From Candidatus Latescibacterota bacterium (GTDB taxonomy: Bacteria; JAAXHH01; JACQVL01), in assembly GCA_016209865.1 (NCBI GenBank), contig JACQVL010000002.1, forward strand, positions 1 through 13,581: 13,581 bases of DNA, in the 5' to 3' direction. The translations under genes were made by a program, and so were the position numbers. Position 1 is the first letter of the stretch. Every line of letters starts with the position of its first letter. Shown piece after piece: positions 2,571 to 11,332 of the stretch. The notes beneath the pieces were generated by a model. That model made no database searches and had not been told where the DNA came from. It saw only the letters and a list, made by a program, of their open reading frames with translations.

Positions 2571-4760
2571 ATGCACTTTACCCTCAACACTCAGTCCCTC
2601 CTCTGGCTGGCCTTCACGGCGGTCGCGGTCATCGTGTTCATCGTCTGGGCGTACCGGCAAGTCGTCGCCCAGCTTGCCGGCCGGACCGGATGGCTGCTGA
2701 CCTGCCTCCGGATCGGCGCAGTCGGTCTGCTCCTCTTCACGATCTGCGAACCCGCCGTCAGCTTCGCGTTCCGCCGCACGGATAAGGCGACCGTCCTCCT
2801 CCTGGTCGACACGTCGGACAGCATAAGCATCACCGACCGGTTGGGCAATCGAGCCCAGGCCGCCAGCCGGTTGTTGACCGGCAGCTGGTTCAAGACCCTG
2901 GACGACCGGTACCGGGTCCAGCCCTACCGGTTCGCGGAGAGCGTGGCTCCCCTGACCGAACGCGAGTTTGACCCGGTGCCCGTCCAGAAGAACGGGACCG
3001 ACATCGGGGCGGCGCTCGACTTCGTGAAGACTCGCACGGATGAAGAACAGGTGGCTGGCGTGATTCTCGTGACGGACGGCAACCCCACGGTCGGGCGAGA
3101 CCCGCTGCGGGCAGCCGCCGGTCTCGGCCTGCCGGTCTACACGATCGGGATCGGGGATACGACCGAGCCGCAAGACGCCGCCGTGGTCAAGCACCTGACG
3201 AACGACATCGCTTACGCCAACAGCAAGGTGCCCGTCGAAGTCACCATCCGGAGCAACGGGTTCGACGGGGTGCGAGTGCCGGTCACCCTGTCCGAGGGGA
3301 CGCGGGTGATCGACACCCAGTACGTGACCCTCAGCGGAGGGGAGCGTGAGCAGTCCGTCATGCTCCATCTCGTCCCGACAGAAGACGGGGCGCATCAGTA
3401 CACCGTGACGATCCCCGTCCAGCCACGGGAACAGATTCCGCAGAATAACAGCTACGGGTTTACGATCAAAGTCCTGAAGGAGAAATTAGGTATCCTGTAC
3501 ATCGAGGGGAGTCCGCGGGCGGACGTCACCTTTCTCAAGCGCACCCTCGAGCGAGACCCCAACGTCGAGGTCACGAGCCTGATCGCGCGGCCGGACGGGA
3601 GTTTCTACCCGAAACCCCTCCCGGCCACGCGTGCGGAGTGGTTCCGGTACGACCTGGTCATCCTGGGGAGCCTCCCGGCCGCCCGGCTTCAGCGCTGGGA
3701 CCGGCAGATCGTCGAGTTCGTCGAGCAGAAAGGGGGAGGACTGATCGCCTTGGGCGGCCACCGGAGTTTTGAACTCGGCGGCTACGCGGGAACCCCGCTG
3801 GGGAGTCTGATGCCGGTGATCATCCCGGCCGTCAACCGGGGGGTGCTCGAAGGACTGTTCACCCCGGACCTCACCCCGGACGGACGAGACCATCCTGTCA
3901 CGCAACTGGACGACGACCCGCTCCGCTCCGCGCGACGATGGGGAGAGCTGCCTCCCCTGCCGGGGATCAACCAGGTCGGCCCCGCTAAACCCGGAGCGAT
4001 CGTCCTGGCGGTGCACCCGACCTGGAAGGCCGGCGGGCGGAACGCCCCGGTCATCGCCGTCCAGCGGTACGGCCTGGGCAAGGTCATGGCGATCACCGCG
4101 TACGACCTGTGGCGCTGGGACCTGATGATGTGGGGGACGGGCGGGACGAGCGTCAGCTACGAACGATTCTGGAACAACATCGTCCGGTGGTTGACGACGC
4201 GGGAGGGCAGCCAGCGCGTCCGGGTCGCCGCCGGCAAGGAACACTACCGGGGGGGCGAGCCGGTCGATCTCACCGGCCAGGTGTATGACGAGAGTTATCA
4301 TCCCCTCGACGGTGCGACGGTCACCGTCACGGTCGTCCCGAAGACGGCCGGCGGCCAGAGAGCGGAGGTTGAGTTTACTCCCGCCGGGAACGGCTCAGGG
4401 CGGTATGGGACGACCGTCCGCGGACTGCCGTCCGGCGAGTACGCCTTCACGGCGCGAGCGGTCAGGGACGGCCGCGAGCTGGGGAGCGACAGCGGACGGT
4501 TCCGGGTCGGAGAGTTGAACGTCGAATACCTCAGAGCCCGGATGAACCAGGACCTCCTCGTCCGCTTAGCGTCGATGACCGGGGGACGGTTTTACCGGGT
4601 CTCCGAAGCCGACCGGCTGCTGAGCGAGGTGCGCTTTCCGGCCCCCAGCATCGCGCGGACGAATGAAGTCCAGCTCTGGAATCACCCGGCGATGCTCATC
4701 CTGTTCATCCTGCTGCTCTCGGCGGAATGGTTCATCCGGCGACAGCGGGGGTTGATGTGA
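2571..4760 (+). CDS. Membrane-anchored VWA-domain protein with glutamine-amidotransferase-like region
   Basis: The product has 729 residues. Two hydrophobic segments lie near the N-terminus (about 9-27 and 41-60) and one at the C-terminus (706-719). A von Willebrand A domain occupies about 73-195 with an intact metal-ion-dependent adhesion site: DTSDS at 80-84, Thr143 in NGTDIG, and Asp169 in VTDG. Residues 215-300 look like a beta-sandwich domain. Residues 305-545 resemble the class I glutamine amidotransferase-like fold common in large VWA membrane proteins (LYIEGSPR at 309-316, DLVILGSLP at 361-369, GGGLIALGG at 388-396). I see no clear catalytic Cys, so it is probably not an active amidotransferase. 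A second beta-rich domain follows at about 550-645. Such proteins often accompany MoxR/Bat-type gene clusters, but no MoxR ATPase is present here. ATG 2567 starts only a short out-of-frame reading frame. Confidence 0.9.
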   Translation: MHFTLNTQSLLWLAFTAVAVIVFIVWAYRQVVAQLAGRTGWLLTCLRIGAVGLLLFTICEPAVSFAFRRTDKATVLLLVDTSDSISITDRLGNRAQAASRLLTGSWFKTLDDRYRVQPYRFAESVAPLTEREFDPVPVQKNGTDIGAALDFVKTRTDEEQVAGVILVTDGNPTVGRDPLRAAAGLGLPVYTIGIGDTTEPQDAAVVKHLTNDIAYANSKVPVEVTIRSNGFDGVRVPVTLSEGTRVIDTQYVTLSGGEREQSVMLHLVPTEDGAHQYTVTIPVQPREQIPQNNSYGFTIKVLKEKLGILYIEGSPRADVTFLKRTLERDPNVEVTSLIARPDGSFYPKPLPATRAEWFRYDLVILGSLPAARLQRWDRQIVEFVEQKGGGLIALGGHRSFELGGYAGTPLGSLMPVIIPAVNRGVLEGLFTPDLTPDGRDHPVTQLDDDPLRSARRWGELPPLPGINQVGPAKPGAIVLAVHPTWKAGGRNAPVIAVQRYGLGKVMAITAYDLWRWDLMMWGTGGTSVSYERFWNNIVRWLTTREGSQRVRVAAGKEHYRGGEPVDLTGQVYDESYHPLDGATVTVTVVPKTAGGQRAEVEFTPAGNGSGRYGTTVRGLPSGEYAFTARAVRDGRELGSDSGRFRVGELNVEYLRARMNQDLLVRLASMTGGRFYRVSEADRLLSEVRFPAPSIARTNEVQLWNHPAMLILFILLLSAEWFIRRQRGLM

Positions 4761-4763
4761 GGG

Positions 4764-4822
4764 GTAGTCGGTAGTCGGTGGTCGGTGAAAATCAGTGACG
4801 AGTGACCAGTGACGAGTGACGA
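4764..4822. repeat. Two adjacent heptamer tandem arrays (GTAGTCG and GTGACNA)
   Basis: GTAGTCG, GTAGTCG and GTGGTCG run from 4764 to 4784. After ten bases, four units (GTGACGA, GTGACCA, GTGACGA, GTGACGA) run from 4795 to 4822. The second array matches the one at 2453-2480 in unit and copy number. The arrays begin right after the stop of the VWA gene. They fit no hairpin terminator and no CRISPR pattern. Confidence 0.8.
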
Positions 4823-4843
4823 GCGAAAAACAGTGAAGAAGGG

Positions 4844-4868
4844 GTCATTCCCGCGAAAGCGAAATCCA
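4844..4868. repeat. Degenerate copy of an ATTCCC-type palindromic repeat
   Basis: GTCATTCCCGCGAAAGC followed by GAAATCCA closely matches the left half of the better-preserved repeat at 11261-11286 but has lost the GGGAAT half of its palindrome. It lies just upstream of the thi promoter. Confidence 0.55.
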
Positions 4869-4907: not shown

Positions 4908-4926
4908 GCAAGCGTGAAGATCGTGC

Positions 4927-5010
4927 GCCGTTAGGGGTGGCTCGGACGCGAGCCTGAGAGTGACGAACCCTTCGAACCTGACCTGGGTCATACCAGCGTA
5001 GGGAAACGGC
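4927..5010 (+). promoter_or_regulatory. TPP riboswitch (THI element) aptamer
   Basis: Every conserved THI-box block is present in order: GGGG at 4934-4937; a perfect P3 stem GGCTCG/CGAGCC (4939-4944 with 4949-4954, GACG loop); CTGAGA at 4954-4959; ACCCTT at 4967-4972; GAACCTGA at 4974-4981; and the block ATACCAGCGTAGGGAA ending at 5006. Closing helix P1 pairs GCCGTT (4927-4932) with AACGGC (5005-5010). The element binds thiamine pyrophosphate in the nascent RNA and controls the thiazole genes directly downstream. It works with the terminator annotated at 5021-5054. Confidence 0.96.
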
Positions 5011-5020
5011 TGAGGATGGA

Positions 5021-5054
5021 CAGCCGTTTCACATCGAGACGGCTGATTTTGTTT
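5021..5054 (+). terminator. Riboswitch-controlled intrinsic terminator
   Basis: CAGCCGTTTC (5021-5030) pairs with GAGACGGCTG (5036-5045) through ten base pairs, one of them a T-G wobble, around a 5-base loop. A T-rich run (ATTTTGTTT, 5046-5054) follows directly. The terminator's 5' arm is also the exact complement of GAAACGGCTG (5003-5012), the 3' side of riboswitch helix P1. With TPP bound, P1 forms and the terminator is free to fold. Without TPP, 5003-5012 pairs with 5021-5030 and transcription reads into thiO. Confidence 0.88.
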
Positions 5055-5064
5055 GGAGGCCTCC

Positions 5065-6186
5065 GTGCCGCGATCCCCGGACGTGCTCGTCATCGGTGGC
5101 GGGGTGATCGGACTGGCCATCGCGCGCCGGGTGGCGCAACGCGGCGGCCGGGTGACGGTGATCGAGCGGGGCGTGCCCGGTCATGAGGCCTCGTGGGCGG
5201 CCGCCGGGATGTTAGCGCCGCAGTGCGAGAGCGACACGATCGACCCCTTCTTCGACCTGTGCCGGGCCAGCCTGGGACTGTACCCGGCGTTTGCCCATGC
5301 CCTCCGGGACGAGGCCGGGATGGAGATCGAGTACCGCGTCGACGGCACGCTCTACCCGGCGCTGGATGACCGGGAACAGAAGACGCTGGAGCAACGCTAC
5401 CAGCGGCAGCGTGAGGCCGGCCTGCCGGTCGTGCGGTTGACGGCGAAAGAAGCCCGGACGATCGAGCCGAACCTGTCCAACCGGGTTCAGATGGCTCTGT
5501 CGTTCCCGGACGATCATCAGGTGGATAACCGGAAACTGGCGCAGGCGCTCGTCGTCGCGGCCAGACGGGCGGGGGTGGATGTTCGTGAGGGGGTCACGAT
5601 CACCCGGATTCTCACGGATGGCGACCGTGTCATCGGCGCGGTAACTAAGACAGAGGAGTGGCATCCGGATGTGGTCGTGAACGCCGCCGGGTGCTGGGCG
5701 AGCGTCCTGAACGGGCTGCCTCCGGGCGCCTGCCCGCCCATCCGGCCAATCCGCGGCCAGATGCTGTCCCTCGACGTGAGCGCGTCACCCCCGTTCCGTC
5801 GTGTGATCTATTCTCACCGGAGCTACCTGGTGCCGCGCGCCGACGGGCGGCTCCTCATCGGCGCGACGGTCGAGGAGGCCGGGTTCAAGAAACAGGTGAC
5901 CGTCGGGGGCATCCTGAAACTCTTCAAGGGCGCGCTCGACCTGGCCCCATCGCTCCGGGAGTATCCGGTTGAATCGACCTGGTCCGGCCTCCGGCCCGCC
6001 TCCCCGGACCGGCTGCCGGTGCTCGGCCCGGCGGCGCTCGACGGTCTCATCTTAGCCACCGGACACTACCGCAACGGGATTCTCCTCGCCCCGATCACGG
6101 GCGAGCTGATCTCAGACGTCATCACGACCGGGGACATCCCCCCCATGATGCGCCCGTTCCTGCCGGGAAGGTTTGAGAGGGTATGA
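5065..6186 (+). CDS. thiO: Glycine oxidase ThiO (FAD-dependent, thiazole synthesis)
   Basis: ThiO oxidises glycine to dehydroglycine (iminoacetate), one of the three substrates of thiazole synthase ThiG. I place the start at GTG 5065, giving 373 residues, because GGAGG at 5055-5059 lies 5 bases ahead of it. The in-frame TTG at 5053 falls inside the terminator's T-run. The N-terminal FAD-binding beta-alpha-beta fold shows GGGVIG at residues 11-16, and an acidic residue ends the second strand (VTVIERG). EASWAAAGMLAPQ is the typical ThiO/DadA-family segment after it, and WSGLRPASPDRLPVLGP followed by GHYRNGILLAP is the characteristic C-terminal FAD-contact region. It is the first gene after the TPP riboswitch and overlaps thiS by four bases (ATGA), indicating translational coupling. 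A related amine oxidase is possible in principle, but context makes ThiO nearly certain. Confidence 0.95.
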   Translation: MPRSPDVLVIGGGVIGLAIARRVAQRGGRVTVIERGVPGHEASWAAAGMLAPQCESDTIDPFFDLCRASLGLYPAFAHALRDEAGMEIEYRVDGTLYPALDDREQKTLEQRYQRQREAGLPVVRLTAKEARTIEPNLSNRVQMALSFPDDHQVDNRKLAQALVVAARRAGVDVREGVTITRILTDGDRVIGAVTKTEEWHPDVVVNAAGCWASVLNGLPPGACPPIRPIRGQMLSLDVSASPPFRRVIYSHRSYLVPRADGRLLIGATVEEAGFKKQVTVGGILKLFKGALDLAPSLREYPVESTWSGLRPASPDRLPVLGPAALDGLILATGHYRNGILLAPITGELISDVITTGDIPPMMRPFLPGRFERV

Positions 6187-6383
6187 CCGTCACCGTCAAC
6201 GGAACCGTCCATGAATTCGACCGCGCGATGAGCATGGCCGACTTGTTATGCCTTTTTGATATCAAGTCAGACGGCATCGCGGTCGCACTCAACGCGTCGG
6301 TCGTCCATCGCCAAGACCTGTCTCAGATGATGCTTCGCGACGGGGACATCGTCGAGATCATCCGCGCCGTCGCGGGCGGGTAA
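6183..6383 (+). CDS. thiS: Sulfur carrier protein ThiS
   Basis: A 66-residue ubiquitin-like protein ending in the required Gly-Gly (AVAGG). Its C-terminus is adenylylated and converted to a thiocarboxylate that donates sulfur to the thiazole ring made by ThiG. The N-terminal strand-turn-strand (TVTVNGTVHEF) and the DGDIVEIIRAVAGG end are typical. The start overlaps the thiO stop as ATGA. The activating enzyme ThiF is not in this window and must be encoded elsewhere or replaced by a MoeB-type enzyme. Confidence 0.95.
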   Translation: MTVTVNGTVHEFDRAMSMADLLCLFDIKSDGIAVALNASVVHRQDLSQMMLRDGDIVEIIRAVAGG

Positions 6384-6387
6384 ACTC

Positions 6388-6484
6388 AACGTTAGAACGT
6401 TCACACGTTTGCACGTTCACACGTTTAACCCCCGCCTTGGTTTTAACGTTTAAACGTTCTAACGTGCAAACGTGTCAACGCTCT
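6388..6484. repeat. Paired octamer arrays (AACGTTNN x5, 17-base spacer, x5) between thiS and thiG
   Basis: The left array (6388-6427) has five 8-base units: AACGTTAG, AACGTTCA, CACGTTTG, CACGTTCA, CACGTTTA. The right array (6445-6484) has AACGTTTA, AACGTTCT, AACGTGCA, AACGTGTC, AACGCTCT. ACACGTTTGCACGTT (6403-6417) is a perfect 15-base inverted complement of AACGTGCAAACGTGT (6461-6475), so the transcript could form a hairpin with a 43-base loop. That 15-mer recurs at 8765-8779. The element separates thiS from thiG inside the operon. Confidence 0.85.
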
Positions 6485-6504
6485 TTAGAAAGGAGCACAC
6501 TCTT

Positions 6505-7290
6505 ATGTCCAGCACACTGAAGATCGGAGACCGGGAGTTTCATTCCCGGCTGATTTTGGGGACGGGCAAATACCCCAACTTTGACGCCATGGTACAATCG
6601 TTCGAGGCGAGCGGGACGGAGATGGTCACCGTCGCCATCCGCCGGGTGAACCTCGACGATAAGTCTGGCCAGTCGTTGCTCGATTACATCGACCGCAAGA
6701 AGTACACCCTGCTGCCCAACACCGCCGGGTGTTACACCGCCAAGGACGCGATCCTGACCTGCGAGCTGGCGCGTGAGGCGCTCGGGACGGACATCGTGAA
6801 GCTCGAAGTGATCGGGGACGAGCGCACGTTGTTCCCAGACAACGAAGCGACGATCGAAGCGGCGCGGGTCCTCATCAACAAAGGGTTCACTGTCCTCCCG
6901 TACACGATCGATGACCCGGTGGTGTGTAAGAAACTCGAGGCGATCGGGTGCGCGGCCGTCATGCCGCTTGCCGCGCCCATCGGCTCCGGGCTGGGCATCC
7001 GGAACCCGTACAACATCATGATCATCGTGGAGCATAGCCACGTCCCGGTGATCGTGGACGCCGGGGTGGGCATCGCCTCGGACGCGGCGGTGGCGATGGA
7101 GCTGGGGTGCGACGGGGTGCTGATGAACACGGGCATCGCGGGCGCGAAAGACCCGGTCAAGATGGCGGAAGCGATGCGGAAGGCGGTCGAGGCGGGGCGT
7201 CTGGCGTTCGAGGCGGGACGGATTCCGAAGAAGCTGTACGCGACGGCGTCCAGTCCGTTGACCGGGGTGATCGGGACGGCGGCGTCGTAA
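6505..7290 (+). CDS. thiG: Thiazole synthase ThiG
   Basis: ThiG condenses 1-deoxy-D-xylulose 5-phosphate, dehydroglycine from ThiO and the ThiS thiocarboxylate into the thiazole phosphate carboxylate precursor of thiamine. The 261-residue TIM-barrel protein has the expected length. [12 protein letters not shown] (12-23) is the family's N-terminal signature. Lys99 in VKLEVIGD is the expected Schiff-base lysine, and PIGSG plus [12 protein letters not shown] are the phosphate-binding loops. The ATG at 6505 has AGAAAGGAG ending 9 bases upstream; the in-frame GTG at 6472 is rejected because it lies within the octamer repeat. The gene is co-directional with thiS after a 121-base gap filled by that repeat. 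Its stop is only 9 bases from the stop of the convergent regulator gene. Confidence 0.96.
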
Positions 7291-7299
7291 CATACCCGA

Positions 7300-8679
7300 T
7301 CACGCCCCTCCGGGGCTGAGGCCCGGCTCGATGCCCAGCGCCTTCATCTTCTTGTACAGGTACGTGTACTCCAGTCCCAGCGCCCGCGCGGCGGCCTCCA
7401 CCTGCCACTGATGGGCGATCAGACGGCGCAGGATGAAGTCGCGCTCGAATTGAGACCGGGCCTCTCGCAGGGTCGCTGAGTCTCCCTGCGCGGAGCCTTG
7501 ATCCGTTGGGATTCCCCCATCCAGAATTGTCCTCACATCCTGCCCGGCGATCTCCGTCCCATCCACCAGCAGAGCGAGCTTCTGCGCCGCATGTTTGAGT
7601 TCCCGCACGTTCCCCGGCCAGTCCCGCGCCATCAACCGGTCGAGCGCCTCCGGTAGTGCTACTTTGGATGAAAAGTGATTCTCCTGGCAGAATTCCGCCA
7701 GGAAGTGCTGGATCAACTCCGGGATGTCCGACCGTCGCTCCCGGAGGGGCGGGATACGGATCGTCATCACGTTGAGCCGGTGGTACAGGTCCTCCCGGAA
7801 CCGGCCGGCCGTCATCTCCGCTTTCAGGTCCTTGTTCGTCGCCGCCAGCACCCGCACCGACACGCTCATCGGGCGATCCTGGCCTAACGGCTCGACCTCG
7901 CCAGACTCCAGCACCCGCAGAACCTTCGCCTGGGCCGCCAGGCTCATGTCCCCGACCTCATCCAGGAATAACGTCCCCCGGTCCGCCGATTGCACCTTCC
8001 CGATGCGACTGCGGACCGCGCCGGTAAACGCCCCGCGGCCGTGACCGAACAGCTCGCTCTCGATCAGCTCACCGGGGAGCGCCGCGCAGTTCACGACGAC
8101 GTACGGCCCGCCCGCGCGACCGCTGGCCGCATGGATCGCCCGCGCGATCAACTCCTTCCCTGTCCCACTTTCCCCTTGAATCAGCACTGTGACCGTCGTC
8201 CCGGCCACCTTCGCCATCAGGTCAGCGATCTGGCGCATCGAAGCGCTCCGTCCGACGATCGCCGCCTGCACCCGCAACCGGGTGACGAACTGCGAGTGCT
8301 CGTGCCGCAATCGCGCATGGTCGAGCGCGCGCCGGATCGTCAGGCCGACGTGCTCGACGTGCAGCGGTTTCTCCAAGAAATCATACGCCCCTAATTTCAT
8401 CGCCTCCACCGCCGTCTGGATCGTCCCGTACGCGGTGAACACGATAACGGGCATCGTTGTCGTGCGGTCTCCGAGCGCCCGAAGGATGGTCAGCCCGTCG
8501 AGTTGAGGCATCTTCAGGTCGAGCAGTAGCAGATCGACCCGCTCGTCCTGGAGCTTCTTGAGCGCCTCCAGTCCATCCTCGGCCTGCACGACCCGGTAGC
8601 CGTCCTCCTCGAGGACCTTCCCCAGGGTCGCCCGCGTCCGGGCGTCGTCGTCGGCGATGAGAATAGTGAGCGTTGACAC
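7300..8679 (-). CDS. NtrC-family sigma-54-activating response regulator
   Basis: A 459-residue protein of standard three-domain design. The receiver domain (1-120) has acidic residues Asp10-Asp12, phosphoacceptor Asp54 (LLLDLKMP), Thr82 and Lys104 (FLEKP). The AAA+ domain (about 140-375) has Walker A GESGTGKE (169-176), the sigma-54-contacting GAFTGA loop (216-221), Walker B GTLFLDEV (235-242) and RFREDLYHRL with the arginine-finger region. The C-terminal Fis-type helix-turn-helix spans about 410-450 (QVEAAARALGLEYTYLYKKM). Once phosphorylated, it should remodel RNA polymerase-sigma-54 at target promoters. It follows its sensor-kinase gene on the same strand. The start is GTG with no visible Shine-Dalgarno sequence, and the first four codons (MSTL) match an octamer-array sequence. 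Specific targets are unknown; the promoter at 11184 is a candidate. Confidence 0.96.
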   Translation of the reverse strand: MSTLTILIADDDARTRATLGKVLEEDGYRVVQAEDGLEALKKLQDERVDLLLLDLKMPQLDGLTILRALGDRTTTMPVIVFTAYGTIQTAVEAMKLGAYDFLEKPLHVEHVGLTIRRALDHARLRHEHSQFVTRLRVQAAIVGRSASMRQIADLMAKVAGTTVTVLIQGESGTGKELIARAIHAASGRAGGPYVVVNCAALPGELIESELFGHGRGAFTGAVRSRIGKVQSADRGTLFLDEVGDMSLAAQAKVLRVLESGEVEPLGQDRPMSVSVRVLAATNKDLKAEMTAGRFREDLYHRLNVMTIRIPPLRERRSDIPELIQHFLAEFCQENHFSSKVALPEALDRLMARDWPGNVRELKHAAQKLALLVDGTEIAGQDVRTILDGGIPTDQGSAQGDSATLREARSQFERDFILRRLIAHQWQVEAAARALGLEYTYLYKKMKALGIEPGLSPGGA

Positions 8680-8804
8680 GTTGGAACGTTAGAACGTTGG
8701 AACGTTAAAAGATGAGAACAGAGACGATGATCCACAGAGTCATCGCTCTTCGAATGTAGATTTGAACGTGCAAACGTGTTAACGTTCGAACGTTCAAACG
8801 TTCA
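8669..8804. repeat. Paired octamer arrays (AACGTTNN x5 each) between kinase and regulator genes, overlapping both
   Basis: The left array (8669-8708) reads AGCGTTGA, CACGTTGG, AACGTTAG, AACGTTGG, AACGTTAA. The right array (8765-8804) reads AACGTGCA, AACGTGTT, AACGTTCG, AACGTTCA, AACGTTCA. A 56-base non-repetitive spacer lies between. The left array covers the regulator's GTG start (8679-8677) and next codons; the right array covers the kinase's last codons and TGA stop (8794-8796). The two genes thus have no intervening DNA beyond this element. Sequence is shared with 6461-6483. Confidence 0.85.
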
Positions 8805-10935
8805 GCGTCATCGTCACCACCGTCCCCGCGCCCTCCCGGCTGCGCAGGTCGAGCGTGCCGCCGTGCGCCTCGACGAGGTGCCGGGCGATGGGCAGGCCGA
8901 ACCCGGTGCCGGACGGCTTCGTCGTGAACGTCGGCTCGAACACCTTCGCAAGATGGGCTTCAGGAATGCCCGCGCCGGTATCCATTACCTCGATCACGAT
9001 CGTGCGAGCCACGACGCCGTTCGACTCCAGCCGCTCGCTGGATCGGGTGATGATGATGATCTGTCCGTGTTGCCCGTCCATCGCGGCGACCGCGTTCTCG
9101 ATGAGGTTCTCGAGGACCATTCCTAAGACATCTGGATCGACGTAGATCATCGGCAGGCCCTCTTCCGTCTTCAGCACGATCTCGGCCGGCAGCAAGACGG
9201 TCTGCTGGTAGAACGCGGCGCGTTCTTTGAGATAGGGGTTGACATCGAGCGGTTGCTTCTTCAGGTGGACGCAGTCCACGAAGCGCATGACCGCGTTCGC
9301 GCGCTGTCCCAGGCGTTCCATCTCATCCAGGATGACAGTGAACGATGGCGTATGCTCAGGACCGGTCTGCTGCATCAGCCGGCGGAGGGTCAGGGACATG
9401 ACGTTGAGCGGGCTTTTCAACTCATGCGCGAGCGCCTGCGCGACCGTCGCCCACGCGAGGACAAAGGGCATCCCGTCCGACTGCGGAGACGGAGACGAGC
9501 GTCGCGTGCGCCGGACGTAGAGGAGCAGCATAGCGGCAGTGATCGCCACGCCCGAGATGAAAACACCAGCGTACCGCAGGAGTGACAGATCCAGCCGGCT
9601 GAGGACGGGGGCGGGCCGGAGGTCGTAGACACTAAATACATCAGAGGGCTGCCGCACCAGGAAGGAAAATGGACTTTCTGATGGTCCCAGCTGGACAAGA
9701 TATATCTGTCTCCCCTCTTTCAACGTTGCCATCGGTCGGAAGCGATCGTCCAGCACGAGCAATCCCGCTTCCTGTACGACGCAGTAGATTTCAGGCCGGC
9801 CGTCCCGATTGAAGTCATAGACCTGTACCCCGGTCGGCTTCCCGGTGTTGTACTCCAGGACGGTCTTGAGGGATTCATCCAGCGCGGCGACCAGGCCCTG
9901 AGCGGTTCCGACGATGATCTCATCCCGGCCGTCTCGATTCAGTTCTGTCGTGAGGATAGAAAGCACTGACCACGGGCTATTCCAGCGATGGAGCATGCGT
10001 CCGGTCTTCCCATCCCAGATGCCGATCTGACCAACGTTGGGTTCAGTACGCGGTCCATCCAAGGCAGTCACAATTTCAGGAATACGATCTCCGTTCACAT
10101 CCGCCGCTGTTGCTTTCACAACTGTAGACGTCCCGCCGAGGCGCTGCTGCCAGAGAAGATGTCCTTGATTGTCGAGAACGATCAAGTAGCTGTGGAGATC
10201 ATCCGTTCCGTTCGCATCGGCTCCGTTCCCTGGAGTCACGGTTCCGATCAGAATCTCATCACGCTGGTCACCGGTCAGGTCTTGGATGGAGATGGAGTTA
10301 GGGACTGTCCCCATCGGATAGAACCACAAGACAGTTCCGGCCCGTCCGTCGAGCGCGACGATTCCGCGCGGGGTCAAATCGAATCCGGTTTTGATCTGGC
10401 CGATGAGGTCAGGCCGGCGGTCTCCGTTCACGTCCGTTGTTCCAATGATCATGATTCTCGAATCGAGCGTCCCGTCTCTATTGGTATCCTTGAGCTGGAC
10501 GATATCTGCAGTCCAGCGCGGGAGCGGTTGGGGGCGCTCCAGGACTGCCTGGTCATAGACCTTCAGTAGGAGATGATCTCCTTCAATGAGACCGATACAG
10601 ATTTCATCACGATGATCGCCGTCCAGGTCGACATTCCCGGAGAAGTCAAACGGCATTGGAAGGTTCAGTTGCCATCGGACCCGAGTGCCAGAGGGGAGGA
10701 TAACATGGAGCATCAGGGCGTACGGCCCTGCGGGAACTTTGCCATAGGACGACAGTTCCATCTGTCCGTCCTGATCGATATCTAAGACCCCGTGAAAGTT
10801 ACTTTCCGTGAACGTAAACCGCTGGCGGAAGATGTAGGGGAGCGAGGCGGGCGAATCAGACGAAGCGGGCGCACAGGCGACGCATGTGAGGGCGAGCAGG
10901 CTGCTCGTGAGCACGACAAGACGGAGCGGCGTCAT
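8794..10935 (-). CDS. Sensor histidine kinase with extracytoplasmic FG-GAP/VCBS beta-propeller
   Basis: A 713-residue protein. Residues 4-21 are a hydrophobic export signal or anchor; Cys18 and Cys21 are near lipobox context but neither fits the consensus well. Residues 40-430 carry eight Asp-rich calcium-loop motifs: DIDQDGQME (52-60), DLDGDHRDE (103-111), DTNRDGTLD (150-158), DVNGDRRPD (168-176), DLTGDQRDE (219-227), DVNGDRIPE (279-287), ELNRDGRDE (331-339), DFNRDGRPE (374-382). Most are 43-60 residues apart, as in an integrin-like propeller of about seven blades. A transmembrane helix spans about 452-474. The cytoplasmic kinase follows almost at once, without HAMP or PAS: phosphoacceptor His504 in AHELKSPL, N-box Asn614, DTGAGIP (652-658) and GTGFGL (676-681). 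It should phosphorylate the regulator encoded 114 bases downstream. The ligand is unknown. The ribosome binding site is weak. Confidence 0.94.
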   Translation of the reverse strand: MTPLRLVVLTSSLLALTCVACAPASSDSPASLPYIFRQRFTFTESNFHGVLDIDQDGQMELSSYGKVPAGPYALMLHVILPSGTRVRWQLNLPMPFDFSGNVDLDGDHRDEICIGLIEGDHLLLKVYDQAVLERPQPLPRWTADIVQLKDTNRDGTLDSRIMIIGTTDVNGDRRPDLIGQIKTGFDLTPRGIVALDGRAGTVLWFYPMGTVPNSISIQDLTGDQRDEILIGTVTPGNGADANGTDDLHSYLIVLDNQGHLLWQQRLGGTSTVVKATAADVNGDRIPEIVTALDGPRTEPNVGQIGIWDGKTGRMLHRWNSPWSVLSILTTELNRDGRDEIIVGTAQGLVAALDESLKTVLEYNTGKPTGVQVYDFNRDGRPEIYCVVQEAGLLVLDDRFRPMATLKEGRQIYLVQLGPSESPFSFLVRQPSDVFSVYDLRPAPVLSRLDLSLLRYAGVFISGVAITAAMLLLYVRRTRRSSPSPQSDGMPFVLAWATVAQALAHELKSPLNVMSLTLRRLMQQTGPEHTPSFTVILDEMERLGQRANAVMRFVDCVHLKKQPLDVNPYLKERAAFYQQTVLLPAEIVLKTEEGLPMIYVDPDVLGMVLENLIENAVAAMDGQHGQIIIITRSSERLESNGVVARTIVIEVMDTGAGIPEAHLAKVFEPTFTTKPSGTGFGLPIARHLVEAHGGTLDLRSREGAGTVVTMTLNV

Positions 10936-11260: not shown

Positions 11261-11332
11261 GTCATTCCCGCGCAAGCGGGAATCCATCACTTTTCTGCGA
11301 TGCTGATTGGATTTCTGCGTTCACGGGAATGA
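11261..11332. repeat. Imperfect long palindrome of the ATTCCC-N8-GGGAAT type
   Basis: ATTCCCGCGCAAGCGGGAAT (11264-11283) fits the pattern ATTCCC-N8-GGGAAT, the form of the Neisseria dRS3 repeat and of similar intergenic repeats in other bacteria. Flanking GTC and CCA extend it to 11261-11286. A degenerate inverted copy begins TGGATTTCTGCG and ends CACGGGAATGA (11308-11332), making a palindrome of about 70 bases. It lies between the candidate sigma-54 start and the NHL gene, so it would be in that gene's mRNA leader. A decayed half-copy is at 4844-4868. Confidence 0.65.

Follow-up and report, generated by a model that had tools for sequence, protein, structure and literature searches.

The short tandemly repeated repetitive (STRR) sequences of heterocystous cyanobacteria, reportedly described by Mazel and colleagues in 1990, are heptamers, and we know of no fixed unit number or facing pairs among them. 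Contiguous short units may also serve as sites for proteins, as with the met boxes of MetJ, tandem 8-bp units (AGACGTCT) that lie in promoters and are read by a ribbon-helix-helix (RHH) protein.

The heptamers GGGNATC and GGGGA(C/T)T of Xanthomonas and Nostoc are dispersed and intergenic, most often with four units per array (Rehm et al., 2015, PMC4692102). Their sense strand lies just past stop codons, which the arrays may overlap, and their antisense strand just ahead of start codons; convergent pairs occur in 70 and 75 cases, divergent sites are few, and no functional gene class is associated with them (PMC4692102). Rehm et al. linked the four heptamer units to G-quadruplexes (PMC4692102). 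The TAACTGA heptamers of marine Beggiatoaceae form intergenic arrays of two to six units, some overlapping stop codons (MacGregor, 2015, PMC4679880). These are located just upstream of start codons that mostly have no canonical ribosome-binding site, adjoin essential genes such as those for ribosomal proteins, and are patchy across phyla; a nucleic-acid-binding reader has been proposed (PMC4679880). Their units are perfect, with no free positions, and a single inverted case is reported (PMC4679880). Contiguous 7-bp heptads are also found in the centromere of plasmid pSM19035, where they are read by the RHH protein ParB (PMC9499535).

The octamer arrays described below come from the genome of a Candidatus Latescibacterota bacterium (GCA_016209865.1), hereafter the host. 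They very probably represent a lineage-specific, octameric variant of the gene-edge tandem-repeat class exemplified by the GGGNATC heptamers and the STRR sequences.

Two Facing Pairs of Arrays in the Window

The window is the whole 13,581-nucleotide stretch analysed, positions 1 to 13,581 of contig JACQVL010000002.1. Read-out of the sequence identifies four 40-bp arrays of five octamers each, and the 3-unit pattern matches the window 10 times, with 0.00 matches expected from 200 dinucleotide shuffles. A preliminary description of this DNA had placed such arrays at 6388-6427, 6445-6484, 8669-8708 and 8765-8804, which the read-out bears out (0.00 expected by chance). The registers given there are right for the first arms, on the plus strand, but the second arms are reverse complements with a register of their own (6443-6482 and 8763-8802), so that the spacers, earlier taken to be 17 and 56 bases, measure 15 and 54 bp. 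The elements and their surroundings are as follows.

4923-5021: TPP riboswitch (Rfam RF00059, 68.9 bits), upstream of thiO-thiS-thiG
6183-6383, plus strand: thiS-like gene, upstream of element 1 (identity by sequence and operon context)
6388-6427, plus strand: element 1, arm 1, AACGTTAG AACGTTCA CACGTTTG CACGTTCA CACGTTTA
6428-6442: element 1 spacer, 15 bp, unlike all other spacers
6443-6482, minus strand: element 1, arm 2, facing arm 1; on the minus strand AGCGTTGA CACGTTTG CACGTTAG AACGTTTA AACGTTAA
6505-7290, plus strand: thiG (thiazole synthase), downstream of element 1
7300-8679, minus strand: sigma-54-type (NtrC-like) response regulator, downstream gene of element 2 (protein-sequence assignment)
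8669-8708, plus strand: element 2, arm 1, AGCGTTGA CACGTTGG AACGTTAG AACGTTGG AACGTTAA
8709-8762: element 2 spacer, 54 bp
8763-8802, minus strand: element 2, arm 2; on the minus strand AACGTTTG AACGTTCG AACGTTAA CACGTTTG CACGTTCA
8794-10935, minus strand: histidine kinase, upstream gene of element 2 (protein-sequence assignment)

Element 1 thus lies in the thiS/thiG gap and element 2 in the histidine-kinase/response-regulator gap, and in both the two arms read towards each other. In element 1, the first arm starts 4 bp past the stop codon of the thiS-like gene, whose native stop and C-terminal GG are intact, and the element stops before the thiG ribosome-binding site, leaving the Shine-Dalgarno sequence AGGAG (6490-6494) intact. 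Element 2 overlaps both neighbours, its first arm reaching over the initial 11 bp of the response-regulator gene, which begins with GTG at 8679 on the minus strand, and its second arm including the stop codon (8794-8796) and last codons of the histidine-kinase gene. The TPP riboswitch is an ordinary companion of the thi genes. The 15-mer AACGTGCAAACGTGT, found at 6461-6475 and 8765-8779 and inverted at 6403-6417 exactly as first reported, is a consequence of the common motif. A scan of the arrays for terminators and promoters, performing near chance level, returned none except one weak promoter-like match over arm 4.

Several other repeats are present in the window. The lone unit that the preliminary description noted at 34-41 (33-41 here) is one of four isolated AACGTT words, and nothing calls for counting it as a family member; it sits between two heptamer arrays, at 1-16 (GGTCAGGGGTCGGGG) and 133-150 (CCTGACCCCTGACCCCTG), which form a facing pair shortly before a gene at 169. 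An AGTGACR heptamer array at 2452-2481 has divergent genes on either side, and heptamer arrays of GGTAGTC and AGTGACN occupy 4763-4823, starting 2 bp past the stop codon of a gene that ends at 4760. The palindromic repeat TCATTCCCGCGCAAGCGGGAATCCA, which we take to be of a kind present in other bacterial genomes, is found at 11267-11294, with a partial copy near 4846.

A Dispersed Family of Five-Unit Arms

The host genome is a 3.75-Mb MAG in 356 contigs, 83% complete, of which the window is contig 337. Searches with 3- and 4-unit patterns returned dozens of arrays from it and none with reversed control patterns; the same octamer patterns gave no match in 58 other genomes, including 15 of the same order. 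Extraction of 37 loci and scoring of arms with a directional unit model yielded about 58 arms, arranged as 20 facing pairs and 18 single arms. The dispersed, paired family that had been suspected from the window is therefore present genome-wide, and tabulation of number, spacing, pairing and gene location shows five-unit paired arrays to be widespread and to lie at gene edges.

The unit is not the non-directional AACGTTNN first proposed, but the directional octamer MACGTTNR, in which M is A or C at about 1:1, N is free and R usually G or A. Constancy at core positions is 97-99%, and G or T occurs at M in less than 1%. The outermost unit often reads AGCGTT instead of AACGTT, and many elements have unlike ends, with AGCGTT at one and AACGTT at the other. 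The R position and the M of the next unit are dependent in host arms (A then C 44, A then A 18; G then A 92, G then C 68).

Exactly five units are found in 48 of the 52 stronger arms, a count made with five-unit scoring, which is biased against shorter arrays. With the alignment anchored on the best five units, the mean core match is 5.4-6.0 of 6 for units 1-5 and falls to 1.3 and 2.0 for units 0 and 6, against a background of 1.7. The exact four-unit pattern, whose upper side is unbiased by the five-unit score, never gives three in-register windows on one strand among the runs listed, and thus no exact run there exceeds five units. A few 3-unit remnants are known (L038, L039 and L041). Placement of the L038 array inside an RNase P RNA was considered and rejected, as Rfam finds no RNase P RNA there and the array overlaps a stop codon.

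Anchoring at Gene Edges

The features that prove decisive, absent from the preliminary description, are the anchoring of arms at gene edges and their inward-facing orientation. By home-made gene calls, the elements occupy 28 tandem, 5 convergent and 0 divergent junctions, with 5 further elements unclassifiable; taken alone, the divergent deficit is weak (Fisher p = 0.09). Of 38 stop codons that face an array, 36 fall in a zone from 27 bp within its edge to 2 bp beyond it. The distance from array to next start is typically 12-24 bp, sparing the ribosome-binding site, and the intergenic length that remains has a median of 5 bp, less than at array-free junctions (p = 4e-5). Arms read outward from the nearest gene in 47 of the 52 classifiable cases; because each reads outward from its gene, two arms in one gap face each other, as they do in 20/20 neighbouring pairs. 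The upstream genes are apparently full length, with Pfam domains that extend to the end. Most array-adjacent genes are ordinary metabolic or housekeeping genes without a common function, among them those for ribosomal protein S13, DNA polymerase I, an HhH-GPD DNA glycosylase, a nucleotidyltransferase and aldehyde ferredoxin oxidoreductase.

Same-order relatives provide empty sites for comparison. Matches to thiG of 78-85% identity occur in 13 other genomes of the order (ThiG is also 72% identical to that of a Methylomirabilota MAG), and the thiS-thiG gap is array-free in five relatives, but it is long and variable and hence uninformative, so the rpsM-rpsK gap was used instead. This gap is 23-31 bp and array-free in same-order relatives, and 59 bp in the host, with a 41-bp array directly after the TAG. 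It is the clearest sign of the gain of an arm at a stop codon in the host lineage.

The host is also full of heptamer arrays that follow the same placement rule, so the parallel drawn earlier with STRR-type heptamers was well chosen. There are 45 such arrays in 148 kb examined, and one heptamer family alone has 421 pattern matches in the host and 0 in 15 relatives. Lengths cluster at 24, 31 and 38 bp (7n+3). Heptamer arrays too form facing pairs with unrelated spacers, and in 36 of 40 arrays the G-rich strand points away from the gene closest to it. Heptamer arrays of 29-33 bp with several unrelated sequences (L031-L067, L262-L277) have a deviant unit, mostly the third, on the C-rich strand (per-unit mean mismatches 0.08, 0.46, 0.86 and 0.16); inner units are favoured by the way the repeat finder trims ends, yet this does not obviously account for the third-unit asymmetry.

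The Same Octamer in Other Phyla

Among GTDB genomes at least 117 stretches match the exact four-unit pattern, and so do 12 viral contigs. Genomes rich in arrays include those of Abditibacteriales SKYG70, Chloroflexi S1bins75 and cyanobacterium CCP5. The taxa include Chloroflexota, Abditibacteriales, Cyanobacteria, KSB1, Bacteroidetes, Acidobacteria, Methylomirabilota, Omnitrophota and others, and the same word is found in isolates as well as in other assemblies. A literature search for the octamer word returned no relevant paper. Outside the host, arrays have anywhere from 3 to about 20 units. The fixed copy number first remarked on in the window accordingly applies to the host and not to other phyla, and five units is a property of the host lineage. 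About half of the array-facing stop codons in these other genomes, by coarse gene calls, fall within the same narrow distance.

Two cyanobacteria with kdp clusters about 85% identical carry arrays at nearly every junction. Orthologous arrays at kdp junctions have cores identical at 107/108 positions and NN identical at 11/36, the latter figure being approximate, since unit registers were set by hand, and the difference possibly inflated by unit gain or loss. Between kdpC and kdpD, an array of five units in one cyanobacterium has about two in the other, and at one junction of the cluster an array is present in both and absent from that place in three more distant species. From this comparison the core is either under selection or rebuilt by copying. 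All exact three-unit matches in Halomicronema sp. CCY15110 (L247, G074), and many of those in cyanobacterium CCP5 (L248, G082), fall within the roughly 6-kb kdp potassium-transport cluster. A gene for a 23S rRNA-intervening-sequence protein lies between kdpA and kdpB in this region.

Interpretation and Alternative Explanations

The basic module is the 40-bp arm of five directional MACGTTNR octamers. Arms settle at gene borders, chiefly where a stop codon lies and shortly ahead of the ribosome-binding site that follows, and would spread as ready-made modules by copying, not by slippage. Purifying selection may restrict them to gene edges: an arm brings stop codons with it, and one placed elsewhere would disrupt coding sequence or promoters. 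The core would be retained because something recognises it, and such recognition is the likeliest constraint on the arms. A hypothetical protein, with one subunit or dimer per 8-bp unit, is the first choice of reader, given strict spacing, an invariant core, two free positions, a fixed number and no selection for pairing between arms. The likely outcome would be local, acting on mRNA or DNA where one cistron meets the next. The full scheme of modules, selection at gene edges and recognition of the core has about an even chance of being correct. It is rather doubtful that the arms are specifically binding sites for an unrecognised RHH- or TRAP-like protein reading contiguous 8-bp units (7-bp in the sister families); were this the case, the arrays would belong to a widely transferred system for marking gene borders, in which array and reader spread together.

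The same arrangement could instead reflect intercistronic RNA hairpins, in which paired arms, folded into an mRNA stem, would shield the upstream transcript or uncouple translation, as BIME/REP sequences do in operons of E. coli. Facing arms in every pair, a site between the stop codon and ribosome-binding site of tandem genes, and predicted stems of -34 and -49 kcal/mol for the two window elements are all consistent with hairpin formation. The variable positions, however, do not covary between arms; there is depletion instead, arms of one element matching less than arms of different elements, and real hairpins fold worse in most cases than arm-swapped chimeras (-39.1 vs -43.5 kcal/mol). As the arms mismatch at variable positions and the chimeras fold more stably, recognition of the core is ranked above hairpin formation; 18 arms without a partner and the presence of pairs at convergent junctions also speak against hairpins, which are an unlikely explanation. 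Insertion of whole array-spacer-array units, as MITE, REP/RAYT or attC-like mobile elements, would agree with dispersed copies that are absent from relatives, with the unlike ends of many elements and with closest arms that differ at only 1-2 bases. The preliminary description likewise took the array-spacer-array arrangement for the unit of a small dispersed element family. Yet the spacers are mutually unrelated, with lengths of 1-54 bp, where a MITE would have conserved internal sequence, each arm is found alone too, single arms being common, and near-identical arms are only in modest excess over column shuffles. Identity with REP/RAYT was rejected, as searches of the host genome (83% complete) gave no match to a Y1 transposase (PF01797, TnpA-REP type) while positive controls matched. 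Integron attC sites have the order RYYYAAC ... GTTRRRY and are associated with gene cassettes and an integrase; the arms run from GTT... to ...AAC, the reverse of this order, and are located in housekeeping operons. Mobile elements of these kinds are quite improbable, and a pair that moves as one unit with a conserved middle is not supported.

Ordinary microsatellites generated by replication slippage would also consist of short tandem units, and unit number does vary in other genomes. Host arms nonetheless almost always have five units and are strictly oriented and placed at gene edges. Adjacent units share NR less often than expected (0.353 vs 0.408, p_low 0.007) and only 3% of neighbouring units are identical, which argues against slippage, since slippage predicts the opposite; the preliminary description had reached the same view from fixed number and pairing. 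Slippage is very unlikely overall, and for the host genome it was rejected on unit number and neighbour dissimilarity. A product of chance or assembly could be suspected in a draft MAG of 356 contigs in which one element is repeated at two contig ends (C23 and C208). Against this, reversed control patterns gave 0 matches vs dozens of real ones, arrays lie inside long contigs, and the word recurs in isolates and other assemblies, making an artefact a negligible prospect.

Comparison with Known Systems

The octamers resemble the REP/BIME sequences of enterobacteria in being dispersed, palindromic and located between genes of operons, but those are built of 20-40 bp palindromes and not of octamer arrays. 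The met boxes of MetJ resemble the host octamers in their 8-bp period and ACGT centre. Met boxes and pSM19035 heptads are contiguous 7-8 bp units with a known RHH reader, whereas any reader of the host octamers is hypothetical. The TAACTGA arrays are likewise intergenic, overlap stop codons in some cases, adjoin essential genes such as those for ribosomal proteins and are patchy across phyla. Unlike the TAACTGA arrays, which precede starts, the host octamers lie chiefly at stops and spare the next ribosome-binding site. With STRR sequences they have in common short direct repeats, intergenic location, many copies per genome and taxonomic patchiness; the host unit is 8 bp, where STRR are heptamers, and heptamer arrays of the STRR kind sit beside the octamers in the same genome.

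The likeness to the GGGNATC heptamers extends to mostly tandem or convergent junctions, outward reading, facing pairs and a preferred unit number. The host octamers differ in their palindromic ACGT centre, in having no G-tracts and in their number of units, which is five and far stricter. Lacking a G-tract, the octamer unit is filed as a variant, and not a member, of the GGGNATC class, and since AACGTT arrays have no G-tracts, G-quadruplexes cannot be the common cause of the placement rule. That rule is obeyed by G-tract-free octamers, more strictly and in unrelated phyla, and must therefore have another cause. Fixed at five units, with an invariant core and two free positions, the host arms provide a clean system in which to seek the protein or process responsible, and the hundreds of sister arrays in one genome add to their usefulness. 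The outward rule, the facing pairs and the preferred unit number are already published for the GGGNATC heptamers; what is new here is an octamer unit that follows them without G-tracts.
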